Source: Gautieria morchelliformis | Lineage: Eukaryota > Basidiomycota > Agaricomycetes > Gomphales > Gomphaceae | Reading direction: 5' to 3' | NCBI GenBank assembly: GCA_015179125.1 | Contig: WHVA01000016.1 | Coordinates: forward strand, 434,001-498,000 | Length of the DNA: 64,000 nt | In this document: piece after piece, positions 8,955-59,135 of the stretch | Position numbering within the stretch: position 1 is the stretch's first letter | How the letters are laid out: each line of letters starts with the position of its first letter | Translations under genes and position numbers: made by a program | Notes under the pieces: generated by a model | The model's database searches: none | Told to the model about the DNA's origin: nothing | Seen by the model: the letters and a program-made list of their open reading frames with translations, nothing else

Positions 8955-9548
8955 TAGCATGTCCTCACACGTAACGTGTCCTCACAGGTAGCGTGTCCCC
9001 ACATGTAACGTGTCCTCACAGGTAGCATGTCCCCACACGTAACATGTCCCCACAGGTAGTGTGTCCCCACAGGTAGTGTGTCCCCACAGGTAGTGTGTCC
9101 CCACAGGTAGCATGTCCCCACACGTAATGTGTCCCCACACGTAACGTGTCCCCACAGGTAGCGTGTCCTCACAGGTAGCATGTCCCCACATGTAATATGT
9201 CCCCACATGTAATGTGTCCCCACAGGTAGCGTGTCCCCACAGGTAGCGTGCCCCCACATGTAACATGTCCCCACAGGTAGCGTGTCCCCACACGTAACGT
9301 GTCCTCACAGGTAGCGTGTCCCCACAGGTAGCATGTCCCCACACGTAACGTGTCCTCACAGGTAGCATGTCCCCACATGTACTGTGTCCCCACAGGTAGC
9401 GTGTCCCCACATGTAACATGTCCCCACCGGTAGCGTGTCCCCACACATAACATGTCCCACACGTAACGTGTCCTCACAGGTAGCATGTCCCCACACGTAA
9501 TGTGTTCCCACAGGTAGCGTGTCCCCACACATAACATGTCCTCACACA
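8955..9548. repeat. 17-bp minisatellite in N1
   Basis: About 35 tandem copies of a 17-bp unit of the type TGTCCCCACAGGTAGCG, with variants in the middle (CACACGTAACG, CACATGTAACA). Because 17 is not a multiple of three and the unit has few stops, long meaningless frames run through it in several phases. Confidence 0.95.
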
Positions 9549-17819: not shown

Positions 17820-18030
17820 GAATAGGAGGAGGACGTCGCTGAGGATGCAGCCGAGGTACAGGGAGTGGCTGAGGAGGCCGAGGAGGTGCAGGGAGTCGCT
17901 GAAGAGGCTGTGGAGGTGCAGGGAGTGGCTGAGGAGGCTGAGGAGGAGCAGGGAGTGGCTGAGGAGGCTGAGGAGGTGCAGGCAGTCGCTGAAGAGGCCG
18001 CAGAAGTGCAGGGAGTAGCCGAGGCATTGG
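17820..18030 (-). repeat. proline-rich coding repeats (A1)
   Basis: Units of about 27-30 bp encode PPQPLPAPP-like repeats just N-terminal to the zinc-finger-like motif. Equivalent tracts of different lengths occur in the other four copies (for example 36820-37090), so the linker length varies by slippage. Confidence 0.8.
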
Positions 18031-18610: not shown

Positions 18611-19157
18611 GCAGAACCTGCTACAGGAGCTGGCTGTCCAGCGTCAGGCCTATTTCTTATGAGGGGCTGTAATCGTGGGATAGCTGCTAACTGTGCACGA
18701 AGGGCTGCCACCTGCTCTCCAAGACTGGGATCAGGTGGATATGATGGCCCCGCAAGCGTAGGAGGGCGCAATGGAGCTGGCTGTACAGGGTCTGGCCTAT
18801 GTCCTCTCAGGGTCTGGCCTATGTCCTCTCAGGGGCTGCCATGGTGTGATAACTGCTAACTGAGCACGAAGGGCTGCCACCTGCTCTGTAGGACTGGGAT
18901 CAGGAGCAAGTGATGGCCCCGCAGGCATTGGTGGACGTGATGGCCCTGCCACAGGTTGTTGAAAAGGATCGGCTGCACTGCTTCTAGAAGGAGGGTGAGG
19001 GATGGCAAAAGGTGGTGGTGGAGGGGGTGGCTGGTTCTGAGCTCCAATATGCGCTCTCCGACGCGCTCTCCGATGACTGGGTGGTGTCATTACCTCCTGC
19101 CCCTCCCTCGCACTTTGACGCACCTGCTGACGGATGCTCTCTGGGGTAGATGGATCC

Positions 19158-19214
19158 CTGAGAAATGCAGGCATAAGAGTAGAGAGAGAATAAAGATATC
19201 AATATCAGACTTAC
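19158..19214 (-). promoter_or_regulatory. conserved 57-nt intron splitting the start codon (A1)
   Basis: The minus strand reads GCGAT, then GTAAGT at 19214, and TTTCTCAG then GGATCC at 19158. Removing the intron joins AT to G and makes ATG GAT CCA, in frame with the DPSTPE coding sequence. Without splicing, the same ATG is followed at once by TAA, while an in-frame ATG inside the intron gives MPAFLRDP. Donor, acceptor and near-constant length are conserved in all five Rep/helicase copies. Confidence 0.75.
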
Positions 19215-19324
19215 ATCGCAAGCAGAATAAGGCAAACTCAGGGAAAACAGGCTGTGCGGGTATCTCAGACGGATTGCAAAGCCACTGATCCTAATATAAA
19301 TACTGCAAACAGCAGATACAGTTA

Positions 19325-20345
19325 CAAAAACTTACCAGAAAGGGGATAATAGCCAGGTAGGGTATGCAGTAGTGACAGGACAAATGCACTTGAAAAGTGC
19401 CTACAAAATGCCAAAAAAGCAAAGTTATAGCAAATAACAAATAATAAGCATCAAGAAAAGGCAGATACAATACCATAACACTCACCAGAAACAGCCAGGT
19501 AGCAGGTGCAGCAGTGACAGGACAAATGTCACTTGAAAAGTGCCTAAAAAAAGCCAAAAAAGCGAAATTATGGCAAATAAGAAGATAATAAGCATCAAGA
19601 AAAGGCAGGTACAATGCCATAACACTCACCAGAAACAGCCAGGTAGCAAGTGCAGCAGTGACAGAAAGTATGTCACTTGAAAAGTGCCTAAAAAAAGCCA
19701 AAAAAGCGAAATTATGGCAAATAAGAAGATAATAAGCCTCAAGAAAAGGCAGGTACAATAGCATAGCACTCACCAGAAACAGCCAGATAGCAGGTGCAGC
19801 AGTGACAGGACAAATATCACTTGAGCAGTGCCTAAAAAAAGCCAAAAAAGCGAAATTATAGCAAAAAAGAAGATAATAAGCATCAAGAAAAGGCAGGTAC
19901 AATACCATAACACTCACCAGAAACAGCCAGGTAGCAGGTGCAGCAGTGACAGGACAATTGTCACTTGAACAGTGCCTAAAAAAAGCCAAAAAAGCAAAAT
20001 TATGGCAAATAAGAAGATAATAAGCATCAAGAAAAGGCAGGTACAATAGCATAGCACTCACCAGAAACAGCCAGATAGCAGGTGCAGCAGTGACAGGACA
20101 AATATCACTTGAGCAGTGCCTAAAAAAAGCCAAAAAAGCGAAATTATAGCAAAAAAGAAGATAATAAGCATCAAGAAAAGGCAGGTACAATAGCATAGCA
20201 CTCACCAGAAACAGCCAGATAGCAGGTGCAGCAGTGACAGGACAAATATCACTTGAAAAGTCCCTAAAAAAAGCCAAAAAAAGCGAAATTATAAATAACA
20301 AACATAAAAAAAGGCAGGTTCAGTAGCATCAAACTCACCAGAAAG
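19325..20345 (-). repeat. tandem mini-exon/intron leader, 144-bp period (A1)
   Basis: Seven or so 144-bp repeats upstream of the start codon. On the minus strand each contains a splice donor GTGAGTG (plus-strand positions near 19481, 19625, 19769, 19913, 20057, 20201), a pyrimidine-rich TTTTTTTAG acceptor 86 nt later, and a 58-nt segment between acceptor and next donor. The 58-nt segments contain no ATG, whereas the intron parts do. This fits a spliced untranslated leader. A through-running 336-codon frame exists because 144 is divisible by three. Confidence 0.75.
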
Positions 20346-20760
20346 AACCTAGATAGGAAGTTAATAGAAGAGATGCAGGTGGTGGGAGGGATGGGATGGG
20401 ATGGGATGATGGTAGAAGGAGGGCAGAGGGGACCGGCTGCGCAGCGTCTGCCAGGTCACCCAGCGCTGTACTGGCAAGCACCAGAGACCGGTCTGGGCTG
20501 GGCCTGGGCCTAGGGCTCGCGGCTGCGCCACTCGCTCCGCTGACCTAACTTTTACGTAATATTATTTGTAATATTAATTGTCAGCCTCGACGCCCACAAC
20601 CCACCGAGCGCGTTTAACTCTTAGACTAGGTGGGTACCCGCGCTTCGCGCGGGGGTGCAGGTCAAGCGCCTTGGTAAGGTCAAATGCATCAGTAAGGTCA
20701 AGTGAATCAGTAAGGTCAAGTGCATTGGGGTAAATAGGATCATGCAAAATATATCCCTGA

Positions 20761-21092: not shown

Positions 21093-21828
21093 GATAGCAT
21101 GTCCTCACACGTAACGTGTCCTCACAGGTAGCATGTCCACACAGGTAGTGTGTCCGCACAGGTAGCGTGTTCACACAGGTAGCGTGTCCACACAGGTAGC
21201 GTGTCTGCACAGGTAGCATGTCCTCACAGGTAGCGTGTCCTCACAGGCAGCGTGTCCCCACATGTAACGTGTCCTCACAGGTAGCGTGTCCCCACACATA
21301 ACGTGTCCTCACAGGTAGCATGTCCCCACATGTAACGTGTCCCCACAGGTAGCGTGTCCCCACAGGTAGCATGTCCCCACAGGTAGCGTGTCCTCACAGG
21401 TAGCGTGTCCTCACAGGTAGTGTGTCCTCACAGGTAGCATGTCCCCACACATAATGTGTCCCCACCGGTAGTGTGTCCCCACACGTAACATGTCCCCACA
21501 CGTAACATGTCCCCACACGCAACATGTCCCCACACGTAACATGTCCCCACAGGTAGCGTGTCCTCACAGGTAGCGTGTCCTCACAGGTAGCGTGTCCCCA
21601 CACGTAACGTGTCCTCACAGGTAGCATGTCCCACACGTAACGTGTCCCCACAGGTAGTGTGTCCCCACAGGTAGCATGTCCCCACAGGTAGCGTGTCCTC
21701 ACAGGTAGCATGTCCCCACACGTAACATGTCCCCACACATAACATGTCCCACACGTAGCGTGTCCTCACACATAACGTGTCCTCACATGTAATGTGTCCC
21801 CACAGGTAGCGTGTCCTCACACATATAA
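21093..21828. repeat. 17-bp minisatellite in N2
   Basis: About 43 copies of the TGTCCCCACAGGTAGCG type, with a local block of variants reading CACACAGGTAGCGTGTCCA near 21140-21210. Confidence 0.95.
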
Positions 21829-25800: not shown

Positions 25801-27769
25801 CATCCCACTTTGGATTGGCAGTCATGGTAATAAATAAATCAGGGGGACCCTTCTTTGTTGCAATGGCCAGGGAGTTCTGGCAGTTTTGATTCATGTCCCG
25901 TGTACTTCCTTGAAATGTCGCAGGCAGAATGACTTTTATGCCCAAGCTGTTTGCATCTCCAATGTCATTGTCCAAGCCTCCATATGAATCTACCATCTGG
26001 TTATACTGCTCAGCACGCAGAGTGTGTTGATTGGCCCTGATCCACCTCAGTCTGCTTTGCTCTGCAGCAGCCCAGGAGTCTACAATGTACTGCTGGAACA
26101 ATTTGCCACCACGCAGGAGTGTTGTAGGTTCTCTCGCTCTCTGGAACAGACGATACGCATGGTACTGTATTTGGGTGACCTGTGTCCGTCTGTTTGGATT
26201 GGGATTGGCCTGCCGAGCACGCTCTGGCTCATGATAAGGAATACCTGGTTCCCATCCCAACTCTCCCTTGGGAAAGAGCAAGACATAGTGCAGAGAGGCA
26301 TAGTTTGCATTGGTATCCAATACCCTTCTGAAAGGTCCACCTCTGAGCTGGACAATAATATCCCTAGGTTCAGGGTCGATGCCATCTCCAGGAAGAACGA
26401 CTGCAATCTCATCTGCAGTTGGGACATTATATCTCCTAGGATCCCTGTGTGCCCTGTATGTGAGCCTTGCCTGGATGTCACCATTCTGTTCTTGAGCTCT
26501 GAGCCTCTCAGCTGCTTGTTTATATGTGCGCACATGAGGATTGCATAGCAGGAGCATTTCCTGCAAGTCTCCCATGATAGTTGGAGACAGACGCTCATTA
26601 CGATTTTTTCTCTTTGCCAAAGCCAGTGCAGGATCATATATGTAAAGCTGGGCATACTTTGCATCGTCTTCATTGTCAGGGAGGAGAGAGCCATGGAGAT
26701 GATACAGTTCACCCTGTAGCTTGAGCACATATGGACCACGACCCTCCTGAAGCAAATCTTGGTCAAAGTTGGCCCCCACAGAAGTGAATGCAAACGCAGC
26801 ATTATACTGCCTGATATTCTGGCAAAATCCTTTTGCCTCAGGGTCCTGGCCTTCTAAGAGCTGTTTCAATGGCTGAGGGGGCTCTGGCAGGTCTTCCAGC
26901 TGCACCTTTCCTTCCATACAGCAATCACCAAACCTGGGCCGCACATTTGAGGATTTCTGCAGGCGTTCTGCCATCCAGTGTAATGCTCCACAGTCAGGGC
27001 AGGGGATAACCATGGGACCCAAATCATGATGCTGCACATCTGCCTCAATTATTCTAGAGCGACCAAGTGGAATAGGAGGAGGAGGTCACTGAGGATGCTG
27101 CCGAGATACAGGGAGTGGCTGAGGAGGTGCAGGGAGCAGCTGAGGAGGTGCAGGGAGTGGCTGAGGAGGTGCAGGGAGCGGCTGAGGAGGTGCAGGGAGT
27201 CGCTGAAGAGGCCGCAAAAGCGCAGGGAGTAGCGGAGGCATTGGTCTTATTGCATTGGCCTGAGCACGCAATGCTGCCACTCCTGCAGAACCTACTACAG
27301 GAGGATTAGCTGCCTGTCTACCTCTTCCAATTGCTGCAATATAGCAGACTGCTCAGCAGCCTGAGCACGCAACTGTGCAATTCCTGCAGACCCAACCACA
27401 GGAAGATTGGGAGGTGGCTGTATCGGCTCTGCCTGTATCTTCTCAAGGGCTGTGCTGCTGGGATTGCTGCTAACTGAGCACGAAGGGCCGCCACCTGCTG
27501 TCCAGGACTGGGATCAGGAGGACGTAATGGCCCTGCAACAGGTTGTTGAAAAGGATCAGCCGCATTGTTCTAGGAGGAGGGTGAGGGATGGCAAAAGGAG
27601 GTGGTGGAGGGGGTGGCTGGTTCCGAGCTCTGGCAGCAGCCACAGCAAGGGCACGCGCTCTCCGATCAGTAGGCGACGTCATACGACCCTCCTGCTCCTC
27701 CCTTGCCCTTTCACACTCCTGCTGACGATTTCTCTCTGGAGTAAATGGATCCCTGAGAAATGCAGGCAT
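22881..27769 (-). pseudogene. Helitron Rep/PIF1-like helicase (A2), broken
   Basis: Same domain order as in A1 but a distinct subfamily, recognised by text such as LRQFPGDAQVFHCADSVKE and DNEDDAKYAQ. Walker A is VIGSGGAGKS. Relative to A5 and the other copies there are at least six breaks: a lost T near 23491, a tryptophan-to-stop change just after Walker A near 24141, and single-base or dinucleotide losses near 24988, 25461 and 25664, plus more in the proline-rich N-terminal part (27060-27560). It cannot make a full protein as written. Some losses may be sequencing error. Confidence 0.88.
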
Positions 27770-27809
27770 AAGCTTAGAGGAACAATCAAGCTACCCCACT
27801 TCAACTTAC
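27753..27809 (-). promoter_or_regulatory. conserved 57-nt intron splitting the start codon (A2)
   Basis: GCAAAT then GTAAGT, ending TTTCTCAG then GGATCC; splicing makes ATG GAT. The interior differs from A1 while the length and splice signals are kept. Confidence 0.7.
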
Positions 27810-27819
27810 ATTTGCAAGC

Positions 27820-28120
27820 AGATGCTGTTGTTGTTAATTTTTCTTGGGCAAAAGTCAGGGGAATTTATTAATTTCTAATTAAATAATGTCAGACAGCTCA
27901 CACCAGACCACAGAGGAAATACATACATACCAAGGAAGGGACAGGGAGTTGTTTGTTAGGCAAAGTCAGGGAATTTATTAATTTCTATTTAAAAAAAAAA
28001 ATAAAAAAATGTCAGATGGCTCACACCAGACCACAGAGAAATATATGTACCAAGGAAGGGATGGGAAATTTTTTGATGAAAATATCCAAGTCTTCTTGGC
28101 TATCCAACTGGAATAATTCC
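27820..28120 (-). repeat. short leader repeats of A2
   Basis: Two diverged blocks sharing GCAAAGTCAGGGAATTTATTA, CTCACACCAGACCACAGAG and ACCAAGGAAGG. They are related to the AT-rich repeats of the non-autonomous elements. The minus-strand CCTTGGTAYGTA could be a splice donor, so this may be a shorter version of the mini-exon leader. Confidence 0.5.
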
Positions 28121-28868
28121 AGTAAAAGGTCCTGGTCCTGGTCCTGGGGAGATGTCTTCTTCAGCCACCAGTAGTGCAAGTCAACACTGAAAGAACTGCA
28201 ATGCAATTGTGGCTCCCTCTAAGGCAGCCTGGGATGACTACTGGCTCCTTAGCAGAGAAAAAGCTGCCCCACTGAAGGGTCAACCCCCAATAGTTCACTG
28301 CAGAGACCTCCCTGGGAAGAGATCTTTTGTGTACTACACCTATATAGGCTATCTATTAATTCACTCTCACGCAATTTTTATTCTATCTAGTAGTGGGCAG
28401 AGAGGAGAGGAGAGGAGGTGGTGGTGGAGTGGCGCAAGCGGCTGGCTGCGCAGCGATCTGCCAGCGCAGCGCTGCTTTGAGCGCCTGAGCCGGCAGACCG
28501 GCCTAAACCGCTCGCGGCTGCGCGCGCTCGCACGCTCCAGAACGCTGCGCAGCGCTGGAGCCGGAAGGCGCAACGTGGCGCACCGCTGCGCGCTCGCGCG
28601 CTCCGCTGACAAACTAATGACCAAGCATTGGTCAGTCAGCGCGCCCACAACCCACTGCGCTTTCACCTTTTAACTAGGTGGATACCCGCGCTTCGCCGGG
28701 GGTGCAAGTCAAACACCTGGTAAGGTCAAACGCACCAGCAAGGTCAAACACCTTGGGTAAATCAAACTTGGGATAAGTCAAACACATTCGGATAAGAAAA
28801 TTTCATTCAGATAAGTAAAAGCATCTTATTGATTGAAGTAGCTCTAAGTAACACATCAAGGTAGGTAA

Positions 28869-32624: not shown

Positions 32625-35600
32625 TCAAGGAGCTCTAAGTAATACATCTTTATATACAATGTTGGTTGTGTCCAAACCCTCCTCAAGCAAGACCTTCACT
32701 CTGTTCCAATTGGTCCCTCTTGATACACCAACATACAACTGACCATGTCCAAACACTGGATATCTTAGGTCCAGCCCAACCGTTCCCAAAGACTGTCCCT
32801 GAGACTTGTTGATAGTCATTGCAAATGCCAAACGCACTGGAAACTGCCTCCTTTGCAGCACAAATGGCAACTCTCCCTCTGATGGCTTAATGATGATCCT
32901 GGGGATGAAAGCAATATTGCCTGCACATGGACCTGAGATGATCCTGACCTCCAACACTCTAATGCTTATCCTCACCAACCGCAACCTTGTCCCATTGCAT
33001 AGTCCTTGCTTCTGATCCAAATTGCGTAACAGCATCAGAGGCACTCCAGGCTTGACTTCCAAGCGAGCAGGAGGAAGAGAGCCCTCCTCTATGGAATTCA
33101 GATACTCCACAGGATACCGATCTGCATCGTCGGATTCTTCAATGGAATTTGCGCAGTGCAAGACCTGAGCATCACCTGGAAACTCCCTAAACACCATGGA
33201 ATTGATCTCATTGACCTCAGTGTTTCTGGCACAGAGGATGGCACGCTCCAAAAAGTATTTGTCCTGGGCAGGGACTTGATTGCCAATGCCAGGGTATATT
33301 TCCTGGATCAGATCTTCAATTCCAGGGCCACAAACCATGTGAGGAGGCAGTGAGAACGTATGATCTAGTGGGAGATCCTTTCCCTGGCCCACATTCTGCA
33401 GCCATTCTGCAAACCTGGCTCTGTCAGGGTCATTTCTCACCCGCATGTTCTCTGTCAGATGGAGGACATTGATCTTTGGCCACAGATATGACTTCTGAAG
33501 GGTAGCTCCCACAATATCCTCCTTGGAGCCTTTAGGGACAATTGGGAGAGTCTGCTGAAAGTCACCTCCAAAGGCGACTGTGATGCCACCAAAGGGTCTG
33601 TCAGGCTGGTCAAGGAAATCCCTCAGTGTCCTGTCAATGGCCTCTATGGCATGGCGATGCTGCATTGCAGCCTCATCCCAGATGAGGAGACTGGCCCGTC
33701 TCAGCATGTCAGCCTTGTCAGAGTTCTTTTTGATGGAGGAGAAAGAGCGCTCATGGACAGGAATGGGAATTCCAAGCATGCTATGAGAGGTTGTACCCTT
33801 AGTGAGGATAAGTGCAGCCATTGCAGATGAGGCTACTGCAATCACAATGAGGCTCTCCGCTCTACAGGAGTGGATTAGAGTGTTCCATGTGAATGATTTC
33901 CCGGCGCCACCTGAGCCAGTGACAAAAAACATTTGTCCATCAGGTTTCCCATGAGCATCTCTGGTCAGTGCTGACCGTAATATCTGTCATGCGCAGACCT
34001 TTGCCCCTCATTCAGCTTGGGAACCTCCTCATCAGCCATCTGTCTCTCTTCAACAGGGTCATAGTCCCTCTGCTCAGCTATGAACCTGTTTCCAATGAGG
34101 GCCTCCCACTCGCCTGCCACCCGAGGCATATCATCAAAGCTGCTCAAGGACATTCCACCCTGCTGGAGGATTTTTTCCAAGAGAAAGAGGCCAAAATCAT
34201 AAACCTGATCGTCCTGTGGATCCTGCATACCATGTCTGATTTGGAGCTGATGTCTGAGATCATCACATATGTGCTCCCTGAAGCCATCCCACAGTCTACC
34301 GGGGCCTGATGGATTGCAATGGCCAAGGATGGTGGCAAAGAGATGTCTGAGCTGAGCACCTGTTTTCATGCCACTGGCTTCCTGGAGACACAACCTCAAC
34401 TCCTGATCATCATCCAGAAGTCCCCTTGCACGACAGGCCTCCTTGTAAGTAGCATATTGTATGCCATCCACCGACCTAAGCTCCTCAAAGGATCTAGCCC
34501 CCTTGACCACTGTGAGGAGAGTGCGCACAAAAAACCTCTCTCCTGATCTAGGGTTTGCAAAGTGAAGGCGACCGATGCTATAACCTCCTTGGCGTGGTGT
34601 CCATACCTTTTCCTGTGAGTGCCAGGTAAAATGCTCAGGAAACTCCACATAGAGCAGATCACGTGCTTCAGGGTAGATATCATTGGCCTCAAAGTAAGCC
34701 ATGAGCGGTGTCTTTTTCGCCTCAGCCCTTTCCAGGATGTTGTCCACATCCTGGTCGGGATCAAAGATGATTGTGTGATGGTCCTTTTCATGGACTGGCA
34801 GTGCCATGACTGCAGGCACCTGGGTGTGGATTTCCCGCTCCAGCAACCTCCAACAGGCCTCATGAGCACTGACATAGCGAGCGTCCAGGTACTGCTTAAT
34901 TTCATCCTGGGTGCGACCAAACTCCATGGTGGTCCGATCATGGCCCTTGTAGAGATACTTGTGAATATACTTGATACACCTCACATTGATGGTGAGTTCA
35001 GGGTTGATGTGACACCAGAATTTGAGCAAGAGCAGAGCAGAGTATGGCACAACCCATCTGTTGTCCAGCATGTCACCTCTGACATTGTGCAGCCTTCCAT
35101 CATTGCGACGACAATATTTTGGATATCCATCCTCATTCAGACTGGTTTCCTCACAGAATGGCTTTGGGAAGCCTTTCTTGCACTTGCCATTTTCCATGCA
35201 GGGTGCGTTTGGTTTCATTTGTCCACAGGGACCATGTGTCATCAGCTCACAGACCAACCGGTAGAGGACAGGATGAGTCTCTGGATCAGGGAACTCTGCC
35301 GAAATCATTGAATCCACCTCATGTGGATGTCTGATCTTGGAATCTCGTTCAAACCAGATAAGAATATGCATGTGTGGGAGTCCCCTTTTCTGGAATTCAA
35401 TGGTGTGGACGCGAGCGACGGTCTCCCCAAAAATCTTTTCCTTGACGATCAAGTCAATGAGGTATTTCTTTTTGAGCTGGAACACCCGCGACACCAGGTC
35501 AGGCCTGTCCTGAGGAGATTGCCCGTGCAACAATGCATCCAATACCTCCTGCCAGTTGGGATTGGCAGTCATGGTAATAAAGAGATCTGCCACACCATGC

Positions 35601-37650
35601 TTCCTTGAAATGGCCAGAGAGTTCTGCAGGTTTTGCTGCATGTCCCGTTCCCCCCCTGAAATGTGGCAGGCAGAATGGATCTTGCGCCCAAGTTGTTTGG
35701 ATCTCTGTCATTGTCATTGCGATGAAAGGCATCCATCATCTGGTTATACATCTCAGCACGGAGAGTGTGTTGATTTGTCCTGATCCACCACAGCCTGCTT
35801 TGCTCTGCAGCGGCCCAAGAGTCTACAATGTATTGCTGGAATAATTTGCCAGCGCGCAGGAGTGTTGTAGGTTCTTCTGTTCTCTGGAAGAGACGATAGG
35901 AATGGAACTGAATTTGGGTGACACGCCCACTTCGCTCACGCCCGCCTGGTAATTGGCGATAGCGAATACCAGGTTGCCACCCCAGCTCTCCCCTGGGAAA
36001 GAGCAAGACATAGTGAAGAGAGGCATAGTTTGGATTCATATCGGATACCCTTCGAAAGCGCCCACCTTTGAGCTGGACAATAACATCCCTATGTTCAGGG
36101 ATGATGCCATCTCCAGGAAGAACCACCGCAATCTCATCCGCAGTAGGGATATTATACCTCCTAGGATCCCTGTGTTCCCTGTACGTGAGCCTAGCCCGGA
36201 TCTCACCATTCTGTCCCTGAGCTCTGAGCCTCTCAGCCGCTTGTCTATATATGGGAACATGAGGATTGCATAGGAGGAGCATTTCCTGCAAGTCTCCCAT
36301 GATAGTTGGAGACAGACCTGGGTTACGCGCGTTCCTCTGTGCCAAAGCCAATGCTGGATCATATATATAAAGTTGGGCATACTGTATCGGCCTCCCAGGG
36401 TTAGGGATGAGAGAGCCATGAATATGATACAGTTCGCCCTGCAGCTTGAGGACATATGGACCACGACCCTCCCGAAGCAAATCTAGATCAAACTCGGCTC
36501 CCAAGGAAGTGAATGCAAATGCAGCATTGTACTGCCTGATGTTCTTGCGAAACTGTTTGGCCTCAGGGTCCTGGCCCTCTAAGAGCCGTCTCAATGGCTG
36601 AGGGAGCACTGGCAGCTCTGGAAGCTGCACCTTTCCTTCCATACAGCAATCACCAAATCTGGGCCGCCGATTTGAGGATTTCTGCAGGCGTTCTGCCATC
36701 CAGTGTAATGCTCCACAGTCAGGGCAGGGAATAACCATGGGACCCAGATCATGACGCTGCACATCTGCCTCAATTATTCTAGAGCGACCAAGTGGAACAG
36801 GAGGAGGAGGTCGCTGAGGACGCTGCCGAGGTACAGGGAGTGGCTGAGGAGGCTGAGGAGGTGCAAGGAGTGGCTGAAGAGGCTGTGGAGGTGCAGGGAG
36901 TGGCTGAGGAGGCTGAGGAGGAGCAGGGAGTGGCTGAGGATGCTGAGGAGGTGCAGGCAGTCGCTGAAGAGGCCGCAGAAGTGCAGGGAGTGGCTGAGGA
37001 GGCCGAGGAGGAGCAGGGAGTGGCTGAGGAGGCTGAGGAGGTGCAGGCAGTCGCTGAAGAGGCCACAGAAGTGCAGGGAGTAGCCGAGGCATTGGTCTTA
37101 CTGCATTAGCCTGAGCCCGCAATGCTGCCACTCCTGCAGAACCTACTACAGGAGGAGGAGGAGCTGGTTGTACAGATGCGCGCCTGTGCCTTCCCAAAGG
37201 CTGCAATGCAGCTGCCTGAGCACGCAAGTCTGCAATGGCTGCTGAACCTACTACAGGAGCTGGCTGTACAGGGTCTGGCCTATGTCCTCTCAGGGGCTGC
37301 CATGGTGTGATAACTGCTAACTGAGCACGAAGGGCTGCCACCTGCTCTGTAGGACTGGGATCAGGAGCACGTGATGGTCCCGCAAGCCTTGGAGCAAGTG
37401 ATGGCCTAGCAAGCCTTGGAGGATGTGATGGCCCAGCAACAGGTTGTTGAAAAGGATCAGCTGCATTGCTTCTAGGAGGAGGGTGAGGGATGGCAAAAGG
37501 TGGGGGTGGTGGAGGGAGTGACTGGTCCCGATCTCTGATACGCGCTCTCCGATCAGTGTGTGGTGTCATTAACCGCTGCTCCCTCGCCTGTGCACGCTCC
37601 CGCTGAGGGTTACTCTCTGGAGTAGATGGATCCCTGAGAAATGCAGGCAT
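32625..37650 (-). pseudogene. Helitron Rep/PIF1-like helicase (A3), two breaks
   Basis: The best preserved N-terminal half: a 693-codon frame runs from the MPAFLRDP text through the proline-rich repeats and the PCPDCGALHW motif. A 558-codon frame holds the Rep domain (HMH in GLPHMHILIWF, YIHKYLYKG), and a 435-codon frame holds the helicase (GSGGAGKS, LLIWDEAAM, GGDFQQTLP, YVGVSRGT). Only two frame breaks are seen, a one-base loss near 33985 and a one-base loss beside the C7 run near 35650. Both are small enough to be sequencing errors, so this copy may be nearly functional. Role as in A1. Confidence 0.9.
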
Positions 37651-37690
37651 AAGAGTAGTGAGACAATAAAGCTGCCAATATCAGACTTAC
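37634..37690 (-). promoter_or_regulatory. conserved 57-nt intron splitting the start codon (A3)
   Basis: GTGCAAT then GTAAGT; TTTCTCAG then GGATCC. Splicing makes ATG GAT CCA. Same length as in A1, A2 and A4. Confidence 0.72.
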
Positions 37691-37794
37691 ATTGCACACA
37701 GACCAAGGCAGACTCAGAAGAATTTATTTATTGATTTCTCTTTATCATAGAAACAGAAACAAAATTAACCTAAAAAACAAACATCAATGGCAAG

Positions 37795-38745
37795 GAAAAC
37801 CCACCAGGGGCAGGGATGAGAGCCAGGAATGATGGGGAGGCAGTGAGAGGAGAAACCAGGGCTGAAAGGAAGTCAGCAACTGATCAAAATATTCGAAGAA
37901 AGCACAACAATCAAAAGAAGATAACCAAAAGTGAACATTAATGGAATAAATCACGCACCAGGGGCAGTGATAACAGCCAGGCAAGATGGGGAGGCAGTGA
38001 TAGGAGCAACCTATGTTGAAAAGCAGTCAGAAAATGATTAAAAAAGCGAAAATACCAACAATAAAAAAGAAGATAAAAAAGCGAAAATCAATGGCAAGGA
38101 AAACACACCAGGGGCAGTGATGAGAGCCAGGAAGGATGGGGAGGCAGTGAGAGGGGCAACCTATGCTGAAAAGCAGTCAGAAAATGACTAAAAAAGCGAA
38201 AATAACAACAATAAAAAGAAGATAAAAAAGCGAAAATCAATGGCAAGGAAAACACACCAGGGGCAGTGATGAGAGCCAGGAAGGATGGGGAGGCAGTGAG
38301 AGGGGCAACCTATGCTGAAAAGCAGTCAGAAATGACTAAAAAAGCGAAAATAACAACCATAAAAAAGAAGATAAAAAAGCGAAAATCAATGGCAAGGAAA
38401 ACACACCAGGGGCAGTGATGAGAGCCAGGAAGGATGGGGAGGCAGTGAGAGGAGCAACCTATGCTGAAAAGCAGTCAGAAAATGAATAAAAAAGCGAAAA
38501 TATTAGCAATAAAAAAGAAGATAAAAAAGAAGATAAAAAAGCAACAATCAATGGCAAGGAAAACACACCAGGGGCAGTGATGAGAGCCAGGAAGGATGGG
38601 GAGGCAGTGAGAGGAGCAACCTATGCTGAAAAGCAGTCAGAAAATGAATAAAAAAGCGAAAATATTAGCAATAAAAAAGAAGATAAAAAGAAGATAAAAA
38701 AGCAACAATCAATGGCAAAGAAAACCCACCAGGTGCAGTGATGAG
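37795..38745 (-). repeat. tandem leader repeats, 149-162 bp period (A3)
   Basis: Six or so repeats (starts of ACCAGGGGCAGTGAT near 38107, 38256, 38405, 38567). On the minus strand each has a segment of about 57 nt ending GCCCCTG, then GTGTGTTTTCC or GTGCGTG as donor-like sequence, a T-rich stretch and a TTTTTTAG or TTTTCAG acceptor. The architecture equals that of A1 but the sequence is unrelated. The exon-like segments lack ATG. Confidence 0.65.
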
Positions 38746-39211
38746 AGCCTGGAAGGCACAGACAGAGAAAGCCAGCAAGAGGAGAGAGATAGCCAGTGGC
38801 AGAGAGAGAGAGAGAGAGCCAGCACGCTGCACAGCTGTGTGTTCCTGCGGAGGAACGGCAGACTGCTCGGTCTGAAGCAGCGACCGGTCGCCAGATGTGG
38901 CCAGTTGGGCGCTTGAACCGGTGCTGCTGCGCAGCGTTCTTGGCTCGCGGCTGCGCCGCTCGCGTCCGATTGGCCAGCTGACCAATGCTGACCTAAAACC
39001 TGACATAAGCACCGCCCACAACCACCCACCCCCGCGTTTAACTCTTAGACTAGGTGGATACCCGCGCTTCGCGCGGGGGTGCAAGTCAAATGCCTCGGTA
39101 AGGTCAAACACATCAGCAAGGTCAAAGCCTTGGGGTAAATCAAACTTGGGATAAGTCAAACACATTCGGATAAGAAAATTGCTTTCAGATAAAACACATC
39201 AAGGTAGGTAA

Positions 39212-49400: not shown

Positions 49401-51782
49401 CCACACCATGCTTCCTTGAAATGGCCAGAGAGTTCTGCAGGTTTTCCTGCATGTCCCGTGTCCCCCCTGAAATGTGGCAGGCAGAATGGATCTTGCGCCC
49501 AAGTTGTTTGGATCTCTGTCATTGTCATTGCGATGAAAGGCATCCATCATCTGGTTATACATCTCAGCACGGAGAGTGTGTTGATTTGTCCTGATCCACC
49601 ACAGCCTGCTTTGCTCTGCAGCGGCCCAAGAGTCTACAATGTACTGCTGGAATAATTTGCCAGCGCGCAGGAGTGTTGTAGGTTCTTCTGTTCTCTGGAA
49701 GAGACGATAGGAATGGAACTGAATTTGAGTGACACGCCCACTTCGCTCACGCCCGTCTGGTAATTGGCGATAGCGAATACCAGGTTGCCACCCCAACTCT
49801 CCCCTGGGAAAGAGCAAGACATAGTGAAGAGAGGCATAGTTTGGATTCATATCGGATACCCTTTTAAAACGTCCACCTTTGAGCTGGACAATAATATCCC
49901 TAGGTTCAGGGATGATGCCATCTCCAGGAAGAACCACCGCAATCTCATCCGCAGTAGGGATATTATACCTCCTAGGATCCCTGTGTTCCCTGTACGTGAG
50001 CCTAGCCCGGATCTCACCATTCTGTCCCTGAGCTCTGAGCCTCTCGGCCGCTTGTCTATATATGGGAACATGAGGATTGCATAAGAGGAGCATTTCCTGC
50101 AAGTCTCCCATGATAGTTGGAGACAGACCTGGGTTACGGGTGTTCCTCTGTGCCAAAGCCAATGCTGGATCATATATATAAAGTTGGGCATACTGTATCC
50201 GCCTCCCAGGGTTAGGGATGAGAGAGCCATGAATATGATACAGTTCGCCCTGCAGCTTGAGGACATATGGACCACGACCCTCCCGAAGCAAATCTAGATC
50301 AAACTCGGCTCCCAAGGAAGTGAATGCAAATGCAGCATTGTACTGCCTGATGTTCTGGCGAAACTGTTTGGCCTCAGGGTCCTGGCCCTCTAAGAGCCGT
50401 CTCAATGGCTGAGGGAGCACTGGCAGCTCTGGAAGCTGCACCTTTCCTTCCATACAGCAATCACCAAATCTGGGCCGCCGATTTGAGGATCTCTGCAGGC
50501 GTTCTGCCATCCAGTGTAATGCTCCACAGTCAGGGCAGGGAATAACCATGGGACCCAGATCATGACGCTGCACATCTGCCTCAATTATTCTAGAGCGACC
50601 AAGTGGAACAGGAGGAGGAGGTCGCTGAGGACGCTGCCGAGGTACAGGGAGTGGCTGAGGAGGCGAGGAGGTGCAGGAGTGGCTGAAGAGGCTGTGGAGG
50701 TGCAGGGAGTGGCTGAGGAGGCTGAGGAGGAGCAGGGAGTGGCTGAGGAGGCTGGGAGGAGCAGGGAGTGGCTGAGGAGGCTGAGGAGGTGCAGGCAGTC
50801 GCTGAAGAGGCCGCAGAAGTGCAGGGAGTAGCCGAGGCATTGGTCTTACTGCATTAGCCTGAGCCCGCAATGCTGCGACCGCTGCAGAACCTACTACAGG
50901 AGGTCTAGGAGCTGGTTGTAAAGGTGCCTGCCTGGGTCTTCCCAAGGGCTGTGCTGGGATAGGCTGTATACCAGCAGCGTGAGCATGCAAATCTGCCACC
51001 GCTGTAGAGCCTACTGCCAAATGTCCAATTCCAGCCGCCTGAGCACGCAACTGAGCAATTGCTGCAGAACTACTACAGGAGGTCTAGGAGCTGGTTGTAA
51101 AGGTGCCTGCCTGTGTCTTCCCAAGGGCTGTGCTGGGATAGGCTGTAACCCAGCAGCATGAGCACGCAAATCTGCCACCGCTGTAGAGCCTACTACAGGT
51201 TGTCCAATTCCAGCTGCCTGAGCACGCAACTGAGCAATTGCTGCAGAACCTGCTACAGGAGCTGGCTGTCCAGCGTCAGGCCTATTTCTTCTGAGGGGCT
51301 GTAATCGTGGGATAGCTGCTAACTGTGCATGAAGGGCTGCCACCTGCTCTCCAGGACTGGGATCAGGTGGATATGATGGCCCGCAAGCGTAGGAGGGCGC
51401 AATGGAGCTGGCTGTACAGGGTCTGGCCTATGTCCTCTCAGGGGCTGCCATGGTGTGATAACTGCTAACTGAGCACGAAGGGCTGCCACCTGCTCTGTAG
51501 GACTGGGATCAGGAGCAAGTGATGCCCCGCAGGCATTGGTGGACGTGATGGCCCTGCCACAGGTTGTTGAAAAGGATCGGCTGCACTGCTTCTAGAAGGA
51601 GGGTGAGGGATGGCAAAAGGCGGTGGTGGAGGGGGTGGCTGGTTCTGAGCTCCAGTATGTGCTCTCCGACGCGCTCTCCGATGACTGGGTGGTGTCATCA
51701 CCTCCTGCCCCTCCCTCGCACTTTCACGCACCCGCCGACGGTTGCTCTCTGGGGTAGATGGATCCCTGAGAAATGCAGGCAT
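46435..51782 (-). pseudogene. Helitron Rep/PIF1-like helicase (A4), Rep and helicase domains in one long frame
   Basis: The longest frame in the window, 1005 codons (46435-49452), holds the whole Rep and helicase. Rep has HMH at about residues 90-92 and tyrosines at about 225 and 229 in YIHKYLYKG. The PIF1-like helicase has Walker A GSGGAGKS at about 576-583, Walker B LLIWDEAAM at about 652-660, GGDFQQTLP at about 692-700 and YVGVSRGT at about 970-977. The N-terminal part is out of frame because a C7 run near 49465 is C6 here; further single-base losses lie near 50668, 51070, 51382 and 51524. The N-terminal PCPDCGALHW motif lies in the 556-codon frame at 49380-51050. Role as in A1. Confidence 0.92.
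50881..51250 (-). repeat. two 180-bp repeats in the A4 N-terminal region
   Basis: Same 60-aa unit as in A1 but two copies rather than three. Confidence 0.8.
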
Positions 51783-51822
51783 AAGAGTAGAGAGAGAATA
51801 AAGATATCAATATCAGACTTAC
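51766..51822 (-). promoter_or_regulatory. conserved 57-nt intron splitting the start codon (A4)
   Basis: Same donor (GCGAT then GTAAGT) and acceptor (TTTCTCAG then GGATCC) as in A1. Confidence 0.75.
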
Positions 51823-51939
51823 ATCGCAAGCAGAATAAGGCAAACTCAGGGAAAACAGGCTGTGCGGGTATCTCAGACGGATTGCAAAGCCACTGATCCT
51901 AATATAAATACTGCAAACAGCAGATACAGTTACAAAAAC

Positions 51940-52515
51940 TTACCAGAAAGGGGATAATACCCAGGTAGGGTATGCAGTAGTGACAGGACAAATGCACTTG
52001 AAAAGTGCCTACAAAATGCCAAAAAAGCAAAGTTATAGCAAATAACAACATAATAAGCATCAAGAAAAGGCAGATACAATACCATAACACTCACCAGAAA
52101 CAGCCAGGTAGCAGGTGCAGCAGTGACAGGACAAATGTCACTTGAAAAGTCCTAAAAAAGGCCAAAAAAGCGAAATTATAGCAAAAAGAACATAATAAGC
52201 ATCAAGAAAAGGCAGGTACAATAGCATAGCACTCACCAGAAACAGCCAGATAGCAGGTGCAGCAGTGACAGGACAAATATCACTTGAGCAGTGCCTAAAA
52301 AAAGCCAAAAAAGCGAAATTATAGCAAAAAAGAACATAATAAGCATCAAGAAAAGGCAGATACAATAGCATAACACTCACCAGAAACAGCCAGGTAGCAG
52401 GTGCAGCAGTGACAGGACAAATGTCACTTGAAAAGTGCCTAAAAAAGGCCAAAAAAGCGAAATTATAAATAACAACATAAAAAGGCAGTTTCAGTAGCAT
52501 CAAACTCACCAGAAA
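51940..52515 (-). repeat. tandem mini-exon/intron leader of A4
   Basis: Same 144-bp family as in A1, with donors (plus-strand CTCACC or CTTACC) near 51940, 52090, 52230, 52376 and 52507. Fewer units than A1, showing that unit number changes freely. Confidence 0.72.
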
Positions 52516-52943
52516 GAACCTAGATAGGAAGTTAATAGAAGAGATGCAGGTGGTGGGAGGGATGGGATGGGATGGGATGATGGTAGAAGGAGGGCAGAGG
52601 GGACCGGCTGCGCAGCGTCTGCCAGGTCACCAGCGCTGTACCGGCAAGGTCTGCGCTGGGCCTGGGCCTAGGCTCGCGGCTGCGCCGCTCGCTCCGCTGA
52701 CCTAATTATTACGTAAATTATTTGTAATATTATTAGTCAGCCTCGACGCCCACAACCCACTGAGCGCGTTTAACTCTTAGACTAGGTGGATACCCGCGCT
52801 TCGCGCGGGGGTGCAAGTCAAACGCCTCGGCAAGGTCAAACACATCAGTAAGTCTAATGCATCGGTAAGTCTAACATATCAGTAAGGTCAAGTGCATTGG
52901 GGAAAATCAAAGTAATCAATTTGCATCAAGTAGATATCAGAAA

Positions 52944-55900: not shown

Positions 55901-58018
55901 TCAGGGGGACCCTTCTTTGTTGCAATGGCCAGGGAGTTCTGGCAGTTTTGATTCATGTCCCGTGTACTTCCTTGAAATGTCGCAGGCAGAATGACTTTTA
56001 TGCCCAAGCTGTTTGCATCTCCAATGTCATTGTCCAAGCCTCCATATGAATCTACCATTTGGTTATACTGCTCCAGCACGCAGAGTGTGTTGATTGGCCC
56101 TGATCCACCTCAGTCTGCTTTGCTCTGCAGCAGCCCAGGAGTCTACAATGTACTGCTGGAACAATTTGCCACCACGCAGGAGTGTTGTAGGTTCTCTCCT
56201 CTCTGGAACAGACGATACGCATGGTACTGTATTTGGGTGACCTGTGTCCGTCTGTTTGGATTGGGATTGGCCTGCGGAGCACGCTCTGGCTCATGATAAG
56301 GAATACCTGGTTCCATCCCAACTCTCCCTTGGGAAAGAGCAAGACATAGTGCAGAGAGGCATAGTTTGCATTGGTATCCAATACCCTTCTGAAAGTCCAC
56401 CTCTGAGCTGGACAATAATATCCCTAGGTCAGGGTCGATGCCATCTCCAGGAAGAACAACTGCAATCTCATCTGCAGTTGGGACATTATATCTCCTAGGA
56501 TCCCTGTGTGCCCTGTATGTGAGCCTTGCCTGGATGTCACCATTCTGTTCTTGAGCTCTGAGCCTCTCAGCTGCCTTGTTTATATTGCGCACATGAGGAT
56601 TGCATAGCAGGAGCATTTCCTGCAAGTCTCCCATGATAGTTGGAGACAGACGCTCATTACGATTTTTTCTCTTTGCCAAAGCCAGTGCAGGATCATATAT
56701 GTAAAGCTGGGCATACTTTGGATCGTCTTCATTGTCAGGGAGGAGAGAGCCATGGAGATGATACAGTTCACCCTGTAGCTTGAGCACATATGGACCACGA
56801 CCCTCCCGAAGCAAATCTTGGTCAAAGTCGGCCCCCACAGAAGTGAATGCAAACGCAGCATTATACTGCCTGATATTCTGGCGAAATCCTTTTGCCTCAG
56901 GGTCCTGGCCTTCTAAAGCTGTTTCAATGGCTGAGGGGGCTCTGGCAGGTCTTCCAGCTGCACCTTTCCTTCCATACAGCAATCACCAAATCTGGGCCGC
57001 ACATTTGAGATTCTGCAGACGTTCTGCCCTCCAGTGTAATGCTCCACAGTCAGGGCAGGGAATAACCATGGGACCCAGAATCATGACGCTGCACATCTGC
57101 CTCAATTATTCTAGAGCGACCCAGTGGAAGAGGAGGAGGAGGTCGCTGAGGACGCTGCCGAGGACAGGAGCGGCTGAGGAGGTGCAGGAGCCTGAGGAGG
57201 TGCAAGCTGAGGAGGTGCAGGAGGCGGCTGAAGTGCGGAGAGGTGCAGGGAGCGGCTGAGGAGGTGCACGGGAAGTCGGGCTGAGGAGGTTCAGGGAGTG
57301 GCTGGGGAGGCTGGGAGGTGCAGGGAGCAGCTGAGGAGGTGCAGGGAGTCGCTGAAGAGGCCGCAAAAGGCAGGGAGTAGCGGAGCATTGGTCTTATTGC
57401 ATGGCCTGAGCACCAATGCTGCCACTCCTGCAGAACCTACTACAGGAGGATTAGGCGCTGGTTCTACCGCTTCCCAATTGCTGCATATGCAGACTGCTCA
57501 GCAGCCTGAGCACGCAACTGTGCCAATTCCTGCTGAACCAACCACAGGAAGATTGGAAGCGTGGCGTATTAGGCTCCTGCCTGTATCTTCTCAAGGGGCT
57601 GTGGCTGGCTCCTCAGCCTGAGCATCGCAACTGTGCATCCTGCAGAACCACCCAGGAAGATTAGGAGGTGCCTGTATCGGCTCTGCCTGTATCTATCTCA
57701 AGGGCTGTGCTGCTGGATTGCTGCTAAGCTGAGCACGAAGGGCTGCCACCTGCTGTCCAGGACTGGGATCAGCAGGACGTGATGGCCCAGCACAGGTTGT
57801 TGAAAGGATCAGCCACTTGCTTCTAGGAGGAGGGTGAGGGATGGCAAAAGGCGGTGGTGGAGGGGGTGGCTGGTCCTGAGCTCTGGCAGCAGCCAGCAAG
57901 GCACGCGCTCTCCGATCAGTGGGCGAATCATATGACCCTCCTGCTCCTCCCTCGCCCTTTCACGCTCCTGCTGACGATTTCTCTCTGGAGTAGATGGATC
58001 CCTGAGAAATGCAGGCAT
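52944..58018 (-). pseudogene. Helitron Rep/PIF1-like helicase (A5), broken
   Basis: The helicase is intact in a 555-codon frame at 52944-54611 (GSGGAGKS, LIIWDEAAM, GGDFQQTLP, YVGVSRGT). The Rep domain lies in two frames (HMH with GLPHMHLLTWF near 55690; YIHKYLYKG near 55270). Further upstream the frame is broken many times, mostly by one-base losses (for example near 54605, 54744, 54930, 55157, 55640, 56313, 56393 and 56430), with dense indels from 57100 to 57720. Substitutions against A2 are few, so the indel load is out of proportion and may partly reflect sequencing error. Confidence 0.88.
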
Positions 58019-58056
58019 AAGCTTAGAGGAACAATCAAGCTACCAATTCAACTTAC
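58002..58056 (-). promoter_or_regulatory. conserved intron splitting the start codon (A5), 55 nt
   Basis: GCAAAT then GTAAGT; TTTCTCAG then GGATCC. Two nt shorter than in the other four copies, in a stretch with many small losses. Confidence 0.68.
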
Positions 58057-59135
58057 ATTTGCAAGCAGATGCTGTTGTTGTTAATTTTTCTTGGGCAAAG
58101 TCAGGGGAATTATTAATTTCTAATTAAATCAATGTCAGACAGCTCACACCAGACCACAGAGAAATAATACATACCAAGGAAGGGACAGGATTGTTTGTTA
58201 GGCAAAGTCACGGGAATTTATTAATTTCTATTTAAAACAATAAAAATAAATGGAATGTCAGATGGCTCCAGATGGTCCACAGACCACAGAGAAATATATA
58301 TGTACCAAGGAAGGGACAGGGAAATTGTTTGATGAAAATATCCAAGTCTTCTTCGGCTATCCAACTGGAATATTCCAGTAAAAGGTCCTGGTCCTGGTCC
58401 TGGTCGGGAGATGTCTTCTTCAGCCACCAGTAGTGCAAGTCAACACTAAGAGAACTGCAATGCAATTGTGGCTCCCTCTAAGGCAGCCTGGGATGACTAC
58501 CTGGCTCCTTAGCAGAGAAAAAGCTGCCCCACTGAAGAGGTCAACCCCAATAGTTCAATGCAGAGATCTCCCTGGGAAGAGATCTTTTGTGTTCTACACT
58601 ATATAGGCTATCTATTTCACTCTCACGCAATTTTATTCTATCTAGTAGTGGGCAGAGAGGAGAGGAGAGGAGAGGAGGGTGGTGGTGGAGTGCGCAAAGC
58701 GGCTGGCTGCGCAGCGATCTGCCAGCGCAGCGCTGCTTTGAGCACCTGAGCAGACCGGCCTAAACCGCTCGCGGCTGCGCCGCTCGCACGCTCCAGAACG
58801 CTGCGCAGCGCTGGAGCCGGAAGAGTGGCGCAAACCGCTGGTGGGGCTCGCGGCTGCGCCGCTCGCGCGCTCCGCTGACAAACTGATGACCAAGCATTGG
58901 TCAGCATTTGTCAGCGCGCCCACAACCTCCCACCGTGCTGCTTTCACCTATAGGAACTAGGTGGATACCCGCGCTTCGCGCGGGGTGCAAGTCAAACGCC
59001 TCGGTAAGGTCAAACACATCAGCAAAGTCAAACACCTTGGGTAAATCAAACTTGGGATAAGTCAAAGACATTCAGATAAGTAAAATGCATCTTATTGATT
59101 AAAAGTAGCTCTAAGTAACACATTGAGGTAGGTAA

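Follow-up and report, generated by a model that had tools for sequence, protein, structure and literature searches.

A start codon probably assembled by splicing in the Rep/helicase gene of Gautieria morchelliformis Helitrons

The stretch of Gautieria morchelliformis DNA analysed here, 64,000 nucleotides long and called the window below, holds five copies of a Rep/helicase (RepHel) gene. In copy 3, the one copy that was scanned for domains, Helitron_like_N (PF14214) is found on two parts of the sequence (E 1.1e-16 and 6.4e-33), with a PIF1-type helicase (PF05970, E 1.3e-63) downstream. The coding parts of this copy are as follows.

35569..37650, minus strand: first part of the copy 3 RepHel frame, listed from an internal ATG and ending in a frameshift; Helitron_like_N begins here
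33965..35641, minus strand: second part of the copy 3 RepHel frame; Helitron_like_N continues
32625..33932, minus strand: PIF1 helicase part of copy 3

At five positions on the minus strand (10527, 20625, 22718, 39049 and 52781), a 3' hairpin with CCTAG adjoins a 5' TCTAAGAGTTAAAC, forming head-to-tail junctions as expected from tandem rolling-circle insertion or from insertion at the end of another element. The junctions show the 5' TC and the 3' hairpin with CTRR; ends were assigned for some copies only, the A copies' own termini (subfamilies are given below) not being located. Domains and junction termini together place these elements in the RepHel Helitron lineage and not among the cut-and-paste transposons. 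Stops or a frameshift interrupt the downstream frame in each of the five window copies, which are therefore probably not active themselves; elsewhere in the genome, open frames reach up to 1777 aa between stops. A single scan of viral_contigs with 558 aa of copy 3 returned no relatives. The proline-rich N-terminal RepHel ORF carries repeats of 30 and ~90 bp (17838-18024, 36813-37089 and 50624-50837) that differ in number between copies, and arrays of a 17-bp unit, TAGCGTGTCCCCACAGG, occupy 8955-9529 (~34 copies) and 21095-21821 (~43 copies).

Where does the protein of such an element begin? All five copies carry AT/GTAAGT...CAG/G GATCC (slashes mark the splice sites), which is to say a candidate intron lying inside the start codon, after its second letter. 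The pattern ATGTAAGT-N{40,65}-TTTCTCAGGGATCC matches the window five times, always on the minus strand, and on average 0.00 times in 100 dinucleotide shuffles, so an earlier note on this DNA, which had reported the motif in five Rep/helicase copies, was right about every one of them. The introns and their internal ATGs lie at these positions.

19158..19214, minus strand: start-codon intron of copy 1 (subfamily B1), 57 nt, GTAAGT..CTCAG; AT of the start codon at 19215-19216, G at 19157
27753..27809, minus strand: start-codon intron of copy 2 (A), 57 nt; AT at 27810-27811
37634..37690, minus strand: start-codon intron of copy 3 (B2), 57 nt; AT at 37691-37692
51766..51822, minus strand: start-codon intron of copy 4 (B1), 57 nt; AT at 51823-51824
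58002..58056, minus strand: start-codon intron of copy 5 (A), 55 nt; AT at 58057-58058
19172..19174, minus strand: internal ATG of copy 1 (MPAFLRDP), overlapping CTTAT at 19173-19177, a likely branch point
27767-27769, 37648-37650, 51780-51782 and 58016-58018, minus strand: homologues of this internal ATG in copies 2 to 5

The figure of 55-57 nt given in the earlier note is correct for the whole intron and wrong as the spacer that follows GTAAGT. Its three readings of the window copies also stand: removal of the intron puts an ATG in frame with the conserved N-terminus (MDPSTPE in four copies, MDPFTPE in copy 2), the unspliced sequence reads ATG TAA at the same place, and the ATG within the intron is in frame and reads MPAFLRDP.

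We compared the window with its source genome (122 Mb, 1113 contigs), within which all comparisons of families were made. The window pattern has 157 + 161 = 318 exact-flank matches there, and its reversed control has 0. Among the copies fetched, intron and leader tell apart subfamilies A, B1, B2, B3 and C, the last with the donor GTATGT in place of GTAAGT. The final 20 nt of the intron, CTTATGCCTGCATT(T/C)CTCAG, have one variable site among the five A/B/C subfamily sequences (B3 being represented by one copy) and the interior varies more, the interiors of A, B1, B2 and C being clearly alike (for each pair, 0/500 shuffles score as high). Lengths of this intron, the last of the leader, run from 54 to 71 nt across the genome matches listed and from 55 to 65 nt in 45 parsed copies, these being the distinct stretches that fit the pattern, with identical ones counted once. 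Left unparsed, for a changed exon start (e.g., GGATCCTTCTAC) or a lost signal (AG in L044, AT in L045), were window copy 2 and L001, L004-L006, L010, L017, L020, L022, L044, L045 and L073. L017, L020, L022 and L001 form a variant of subfamily A whose exon 2 begins GGATCCTTCTAC and still encodes Asp-Pro-Ser-Thr; because the exon patterns miss this variant, copy counts obtained with them are lower bounds. L010 (G000:C25:191703-194724) has CTCACTAATCTTATGCCTGCATTCTCAG on the acceptor side and no GTAAGT donor upstream, and is perhaps truncated or recombined, and L020 (G000:C151:230009-236073), of subfamily A, has an extra stretch between the donor and acceptor of its first leader intron.

How faithfully are the signals kept? 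In the 145 rows listed of the 169 counted for A, B and C (rows selected by their flanking sequence and read by eye), the AT of the start is lost in 2, the donor GT in 1, the G after the acceptor in 1 and the internal ATG in 2, and the acceptor AG is kept in all. We considered and rejected such conservation within subfamilies as evidence of selection, since most copies of a subfamily are near identical, and it does not separate the models; the comparison with a distant family, described below, does.

The predicted intron resembles those of the host: a short GT..AG intron of typical length with a consensus donor (GTAAGT, GTATGT or, in the distant family, GTGAGT). The gamma-tubulin gene of the same genome, an 83-aa piece of which finds general tubulin matches in PDB, gamma-tubulins first, has introns that we delimited at 48, 55, 53, 64, 130 and 84 nt, the first alone being checked by translation. 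This evident 48-nt first intron reads GTAAGA..CTGAC..CTAAG, its removal gives GQCGNQIGSAFW, and a short intron with an AAG acceptor, as in the distant family, therefore fits the host.

A skeptic might say that none of this is an intron at all, and that the signals are there by chance or have hitchhiked in a young repeat family whose RNA is unspliced here. Near identity within subfamilies favors the skeptic insofar as it makes conservation there uninformative, and so does the lack of a processed copy in the genome. A genome search for the exact spliced junction of A, B and C found 0 matches; at two or fewer mismatches there were 226, and among the 100 listed all were the unspliced acceptor or close variants of it, except one unrelated row (C393). 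For the distant family, the spliced junction returned 86 rows, every one the unspliced acceptor at 1 mismatch. Intronless copies, which we had sought as proof of splicing, were thus found neither for A, B and C nor for the distant family, and splicing has left no genomic trace. Helitrons move as DNA, so the intron would not be lost by transposition. What tells against the skeptic is that donors change into other good donors, and that the signals persist in a family whose intron interior has no detectable similarity to those of A, B and C.

That family, which we call D, makes up 11 of the 12 PF14214 matches for which upstream sequence was fetched (the other, L073, is B3). Its layout is AT/GTGAGT...AAG/G GAA CCC TCT ACA CCA GAG, giving MEPSTPE when spliced. 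AT/GTNNGT...AG/GGARCC has 84 matches in the genome, with GTGAGT in all matches listed, and of the 86 rows mentioned above, which match exon 2 plus the acceptor AAG, 83 are also in this donor set of 84. With B2 (552 residues) and B1 (601 residues), the D protein shares 64% identity across the Rep half; with A, it shares 55% over 479 residues of a part other than that aligned with B1 and B2. Stripped of donor and acceptor, the D intron is no more similar to that of A, B1, B2 or C than shuffled sequence is (461, 81, 369 and 90 of 500 shuffles, respectively, score at least as high as the real one). Its lengths in 13 parsed copies are 58, 60, 61, 63 and 65 nt, covering all residues modulo 3.

An internal ATG is present in none of the 13 parsed D introns. 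At all 10 D loci checked (of the 11 fetched; L069, left out, has the same layout), the unspliced exon-2 frame runs back to a TGA without meeting any ATG, and the spliced frame reads stop-ATVIVK-MEPSTPE (ATIIVK in one), with the in-frame stop 7 codons upstream. With no ATG in the intron and an in-frame TGA, splicing would be the only AUG route to the conserved N-terminus of D. Without it no in-frame AUG precedes EPSTPE, and this, together with the persistence of the signals, makes the skeptic's account barely credible.

The same family bears on a second proposal, made in the earlier note: that two N-termini are produced, MDPSTPE from spliced mRNA and MPAFLRDPSTPE from intron-retaining mRNA that starts at the internal ATG. 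The internal ATG is in frame in 32/32 parsed A, B and C copies (in C, whose donor also holds an ATG, CTTATGCC was what was checked) and missing from 2 of the 145 rows listed. Its conservation there matches that of the remaining 3' end of the intron, in which one of 20 sites varies while the interior varies more. The AT of the internal ATG overlaps CTTAT, which is invariant in the A, B and C introns, with its A 16 nt before the acceptor end. Fungal-type branch points follow the consensus CTNAY, which CTTAT fits. As a plausible branch point, it would explain that AT by splicing alone. The context of the internal ATG is poor, with C at -3 and C at +4 in 27/28 parsed A and B copies (in the one remaining copy, of B2, as in subfamily C, an ATG earlier in the intron was met first), and the codon lies 3' of ATG TAA, or in C of ATG TAT GTC TGA. 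Changes that several copies have in common in this stretch include the nonsynonymous GCA->ACA and CTC->ATC beside one that is synonymous, TTT->TTC in subfamily C. Above all, the internal start is not conserved across families: 32/32 in A, B and C, and 0/13 in D, which has an in-frame stop instead (10/10). A second N-terminus is thus improbable and, in view of D, not general. What has been kept over deep divergence would thus be the split start codon, not the internal ATG.

Is the split codon the first AUG that the mature message offers? The leader bears on this. In B1 and B2, the leaders are arrays of about 144-bp and 149-bp units, each of which has ~57 nt resembling an exon, together with a donor-like GTGAGT or GTGTGT and an acceptor-like TTTTTTTAG or CTTTTCAG; in subfamily A, there are two shorter predicted introns. 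The arrays themselves (19351-20293, 37771-38756 and 51973-52467) are built of units that resemble a complete mini exon plus intron, and the number of units varies between copies. The window leaders (type A in copies 2 and 5, B1 in copies 1 and 4, and B2 in copy 3) are laid out as follows.

19215..20625, minus strand: leader of copy 1, from TC 5' terminus to AT, ~144-bp units, eight predicted introns; ATGs, 0 exonic and 13 intronic
20264-20338, 20120-20205, 19976-20061, 19832-19917, 19688-19773, 19544-19629, 19401-19485 and 19303-19335, minus strand: the predicted introns of the copy 1 leader
27810..28346, minus strand: leader of copy 2, from a TATATAG box; predicted introns 27985-28050 and 27875-27930; ATGs, 0 exonic and 2 intronic
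37691..39049, minus strand: leader of copy 3, from TC terminus, ~149-bp units; six predicted introns between 37740 and 38568; ATGs, 1 exonic and 4 intronic
51823..52781, minus strand: leader of copy 4, from TC terminus; five predicted introns between 51911 and 52509; ATGs, 0 exonic and 11 intronic
58057..58605, minus strand: leader of copy 5, from a TATATAG box; predicted introns 58228-58305 and 58120-58174; ATGs, 0 exonic and 1 intronic

Copy 1 has all 13 of its leader ATGs in predicted introns and none in the 788 exonic bases, where 12.9 would be expected. The predicted spliced leaders of copies 1 to 5 contain 0, 0, 1, 0 and 0 ATGs against 12.9, 5.9, 10.8, 9.3 and 6.6 expected when the exonic part is dinucleotide-shuffled (for each copy, no more than 1 in 2000 shuffles was as low), and the introns contain 13, 2, 4, 11 and 1; because tandem units are not independent, these expectations overstate the evidence. 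The single exonic ATG, in copy 3, is at offset 43, counted from the TC terminus, and may precede the start of transcription. Across 28 copies of A, B1 and B2, exonic ATGs number 0, 0 and 9 against 29, 57 and 70 expected, and all nine come from the three of the nine B2 copies (L033, L034 and L040) that lack a rule-placed last intron, the donor of L034 being itself changed.

The introns of the leader were drawn by eye and by rule from their signals, partly after the ATGs had been seen, and we accordingly take the distribution of ATGs as support and not as proof. When the intron mask of copy 1 is shifted along the leader, 57 of 1410 shifts leave no exonic ATG, and these lie from -40 to +10 and, roughly one repeat unit off, from -148 to -139; for copy 4, the count is 48 of 958, and for copy 3 (B2), 238 of 1358 shifts are as low or lower, which is not significant. 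The last predicted B1 leader intron, 19303-19335, is very short (33 nt) and may be wrong, although it contains no ATG and leaves the count unaffected, and among the predicted leader introns of copy 3, one has CAA and another AAG at its end. With nearly all leader ATGs placed in predicted introns, the mature mRNA would most likely have AT/G as its first AUG.

Could AT/G nevertheless not be the start? An upstream coding exon might be joined there, or translation might begin at a downstream Met (MTSP, for example), and the intron would then be an ordinary internal or 5'UTR intron. The leader exons are, after all, predicted; other donor-like sites exist upstream; and a downstream MT(S/P) is common to five of six aligned families. 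Counted without splicing, the in-frame stop before AT/G is 8, 22, 8, 8 and 15 codons upstream in copies 1 to 5, and in the predicted spliced leader 8, 96, 8, 8 and 15, so that copy 2 goes 96 codons without a stop (no ATG occurs between that stop and AT/G). Against this reading, stops lie close upstream in the predicted spliced leaders of 4/5 window copies and at 10/10 D loci, and the predicted leader exons of copies 1, 2, 4 and 5 contain no ATG at all. MxPSTP precedes MTSP in all six families aligned (the alignment was begun at the spliced M, and where similarity starts is not visible from it), and codons 2-7 of A and D differ at third positions only. We consider a start elsewhere very unlikely. 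In most families, the spliced AUG has a good context: 35/35 parsed copies of B, C and D have G or A at -3 and G at +4. Less favorable to a start at AT/G is subfamily A, in which 9/10 parsed copies have C at -3 and G at +4.

Our preferred reading, to which we give a probability of roughly 0.87, is that the start codon of the transposase is assembled by splicing and that translation is thereby tied to splicing. The earlier note had proposed this tie, and here it is inferred from comparative sequence. The split start is well supported by donor substitutions that preserve a working site (GTAAGT, GTATGT in C and GTGAGT in D all fit the 5' splice site), by the same position of the intron in D, by predicted leaders nearly free of ATG and by the good context in most families; under the predicted leader, the splice would yield the first in-frame AUG of the ORF. 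In this scheme, the Rep/helicase gene would have a noncoding leader of several introns, the last of which cuts the start codon after AT. Splicing would join AT to G and so give the mature mRNA its first AUG, which has a strong context in most families and lies in the reading frame of M(D/E)PSTP and of the long RepHel ORF. Were the intron retained, the same AUG would run at once into a stop (UAA or UGA; in subfamily C, UAU GUC UGA), and unspliced leaders would also bring in upstream AUGs from the other introns, so transposase would be made from processed mRNA. Any intron placed after AT with a GTRAGT donor should behave in this way, giving AUG-UAA or AUG-UGA on retention and turning the ORF off. 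Splicing of the start-codon intron is most likely constitutive.

One can imagine more than this. Leader and split start together might amount to a splicing license for transposition, with every upstream AUG hidden in introns by the tandem mini exon/intron units, the last intron completing the AUG and any drop in splicing leaving an AUG-stop that silences the transposase; transposition would then follow the host's splicing efficiency or cell type, and retention in A, B and C could even give a variant N-terminus. We offer this as speculation, and rather doubtful speculation at that.

Why should one care? The reading provides a testable case of a DNA transposon in which the start of a protein appears to depend on splicing and to have been kept so through deep divergence. 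It also has a practical side: gene finders that take the first ATG would call MPAFLRDP in A, B and C (the ORF list did so for copy 3) and would miss the N-terminus of D. And the modular, ATG-poor leader is a natural system for studying the effect of repeated introns on expression.

Split start codons are rare and already known from ordinary genes. Among open-licence PMC papers, searched by titles and the starts of abstracts, we found no report of a transposase that depends on splicing to complete its start codon. In Yarrowia lipolytica, the donors of 42 introns come right after the A, T or G of the start codon, splicing of such introns tends to be more efficient than that of UTR introns, and an upstream start with a stop behind it is present in 383 of 561 5'UTR introns (PMC13309789); those are yeast genes with RNA evidence, and the class mixes introns after A, AT and ATG. 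The minimal uORF AUGUAA in the 5' leader of Arabidopsis NIP5;1 triggers ribosome stalling (PMC11915504). Unspliced A and B Helitron transcripts would likewise carry AUG UAA, but the Helitron AUG-stop would occur only in intron-retaining RNA and follows automatically from AT/GTRAGT. Also comparable are HELPO1.1 and HELPO1.2 of Pleurotus ostreatus, in which RNA-seq showed introns in RepHel, a type of gene often called intronless (PMC4289320). HELPO1 and HELPO2 are likewise fungal RepHel Helitrons; the main text of that paper does not contain the words "start codon", and its passages on these genes describe no tandem exon/intron leader. A likeness for the intron itself is found in cellular genes in which spliceosomal introns disrupt the start codon (Nielsen and Wernersson 2006, PMC1626468), the shared feature being a spliceosomal intron within the ATG. 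The Helitron case, known here from sequence alone, differs in that it concerns a transposon, several subfamilies plus one distant family of it, and hundreds of copies. Start-codon introns and fungal RepHel introns are, in other words, already known, and what is new is that a split start codon has been conserved in a Helitron lineage, together with a leader that is modular and poor in ATGs.
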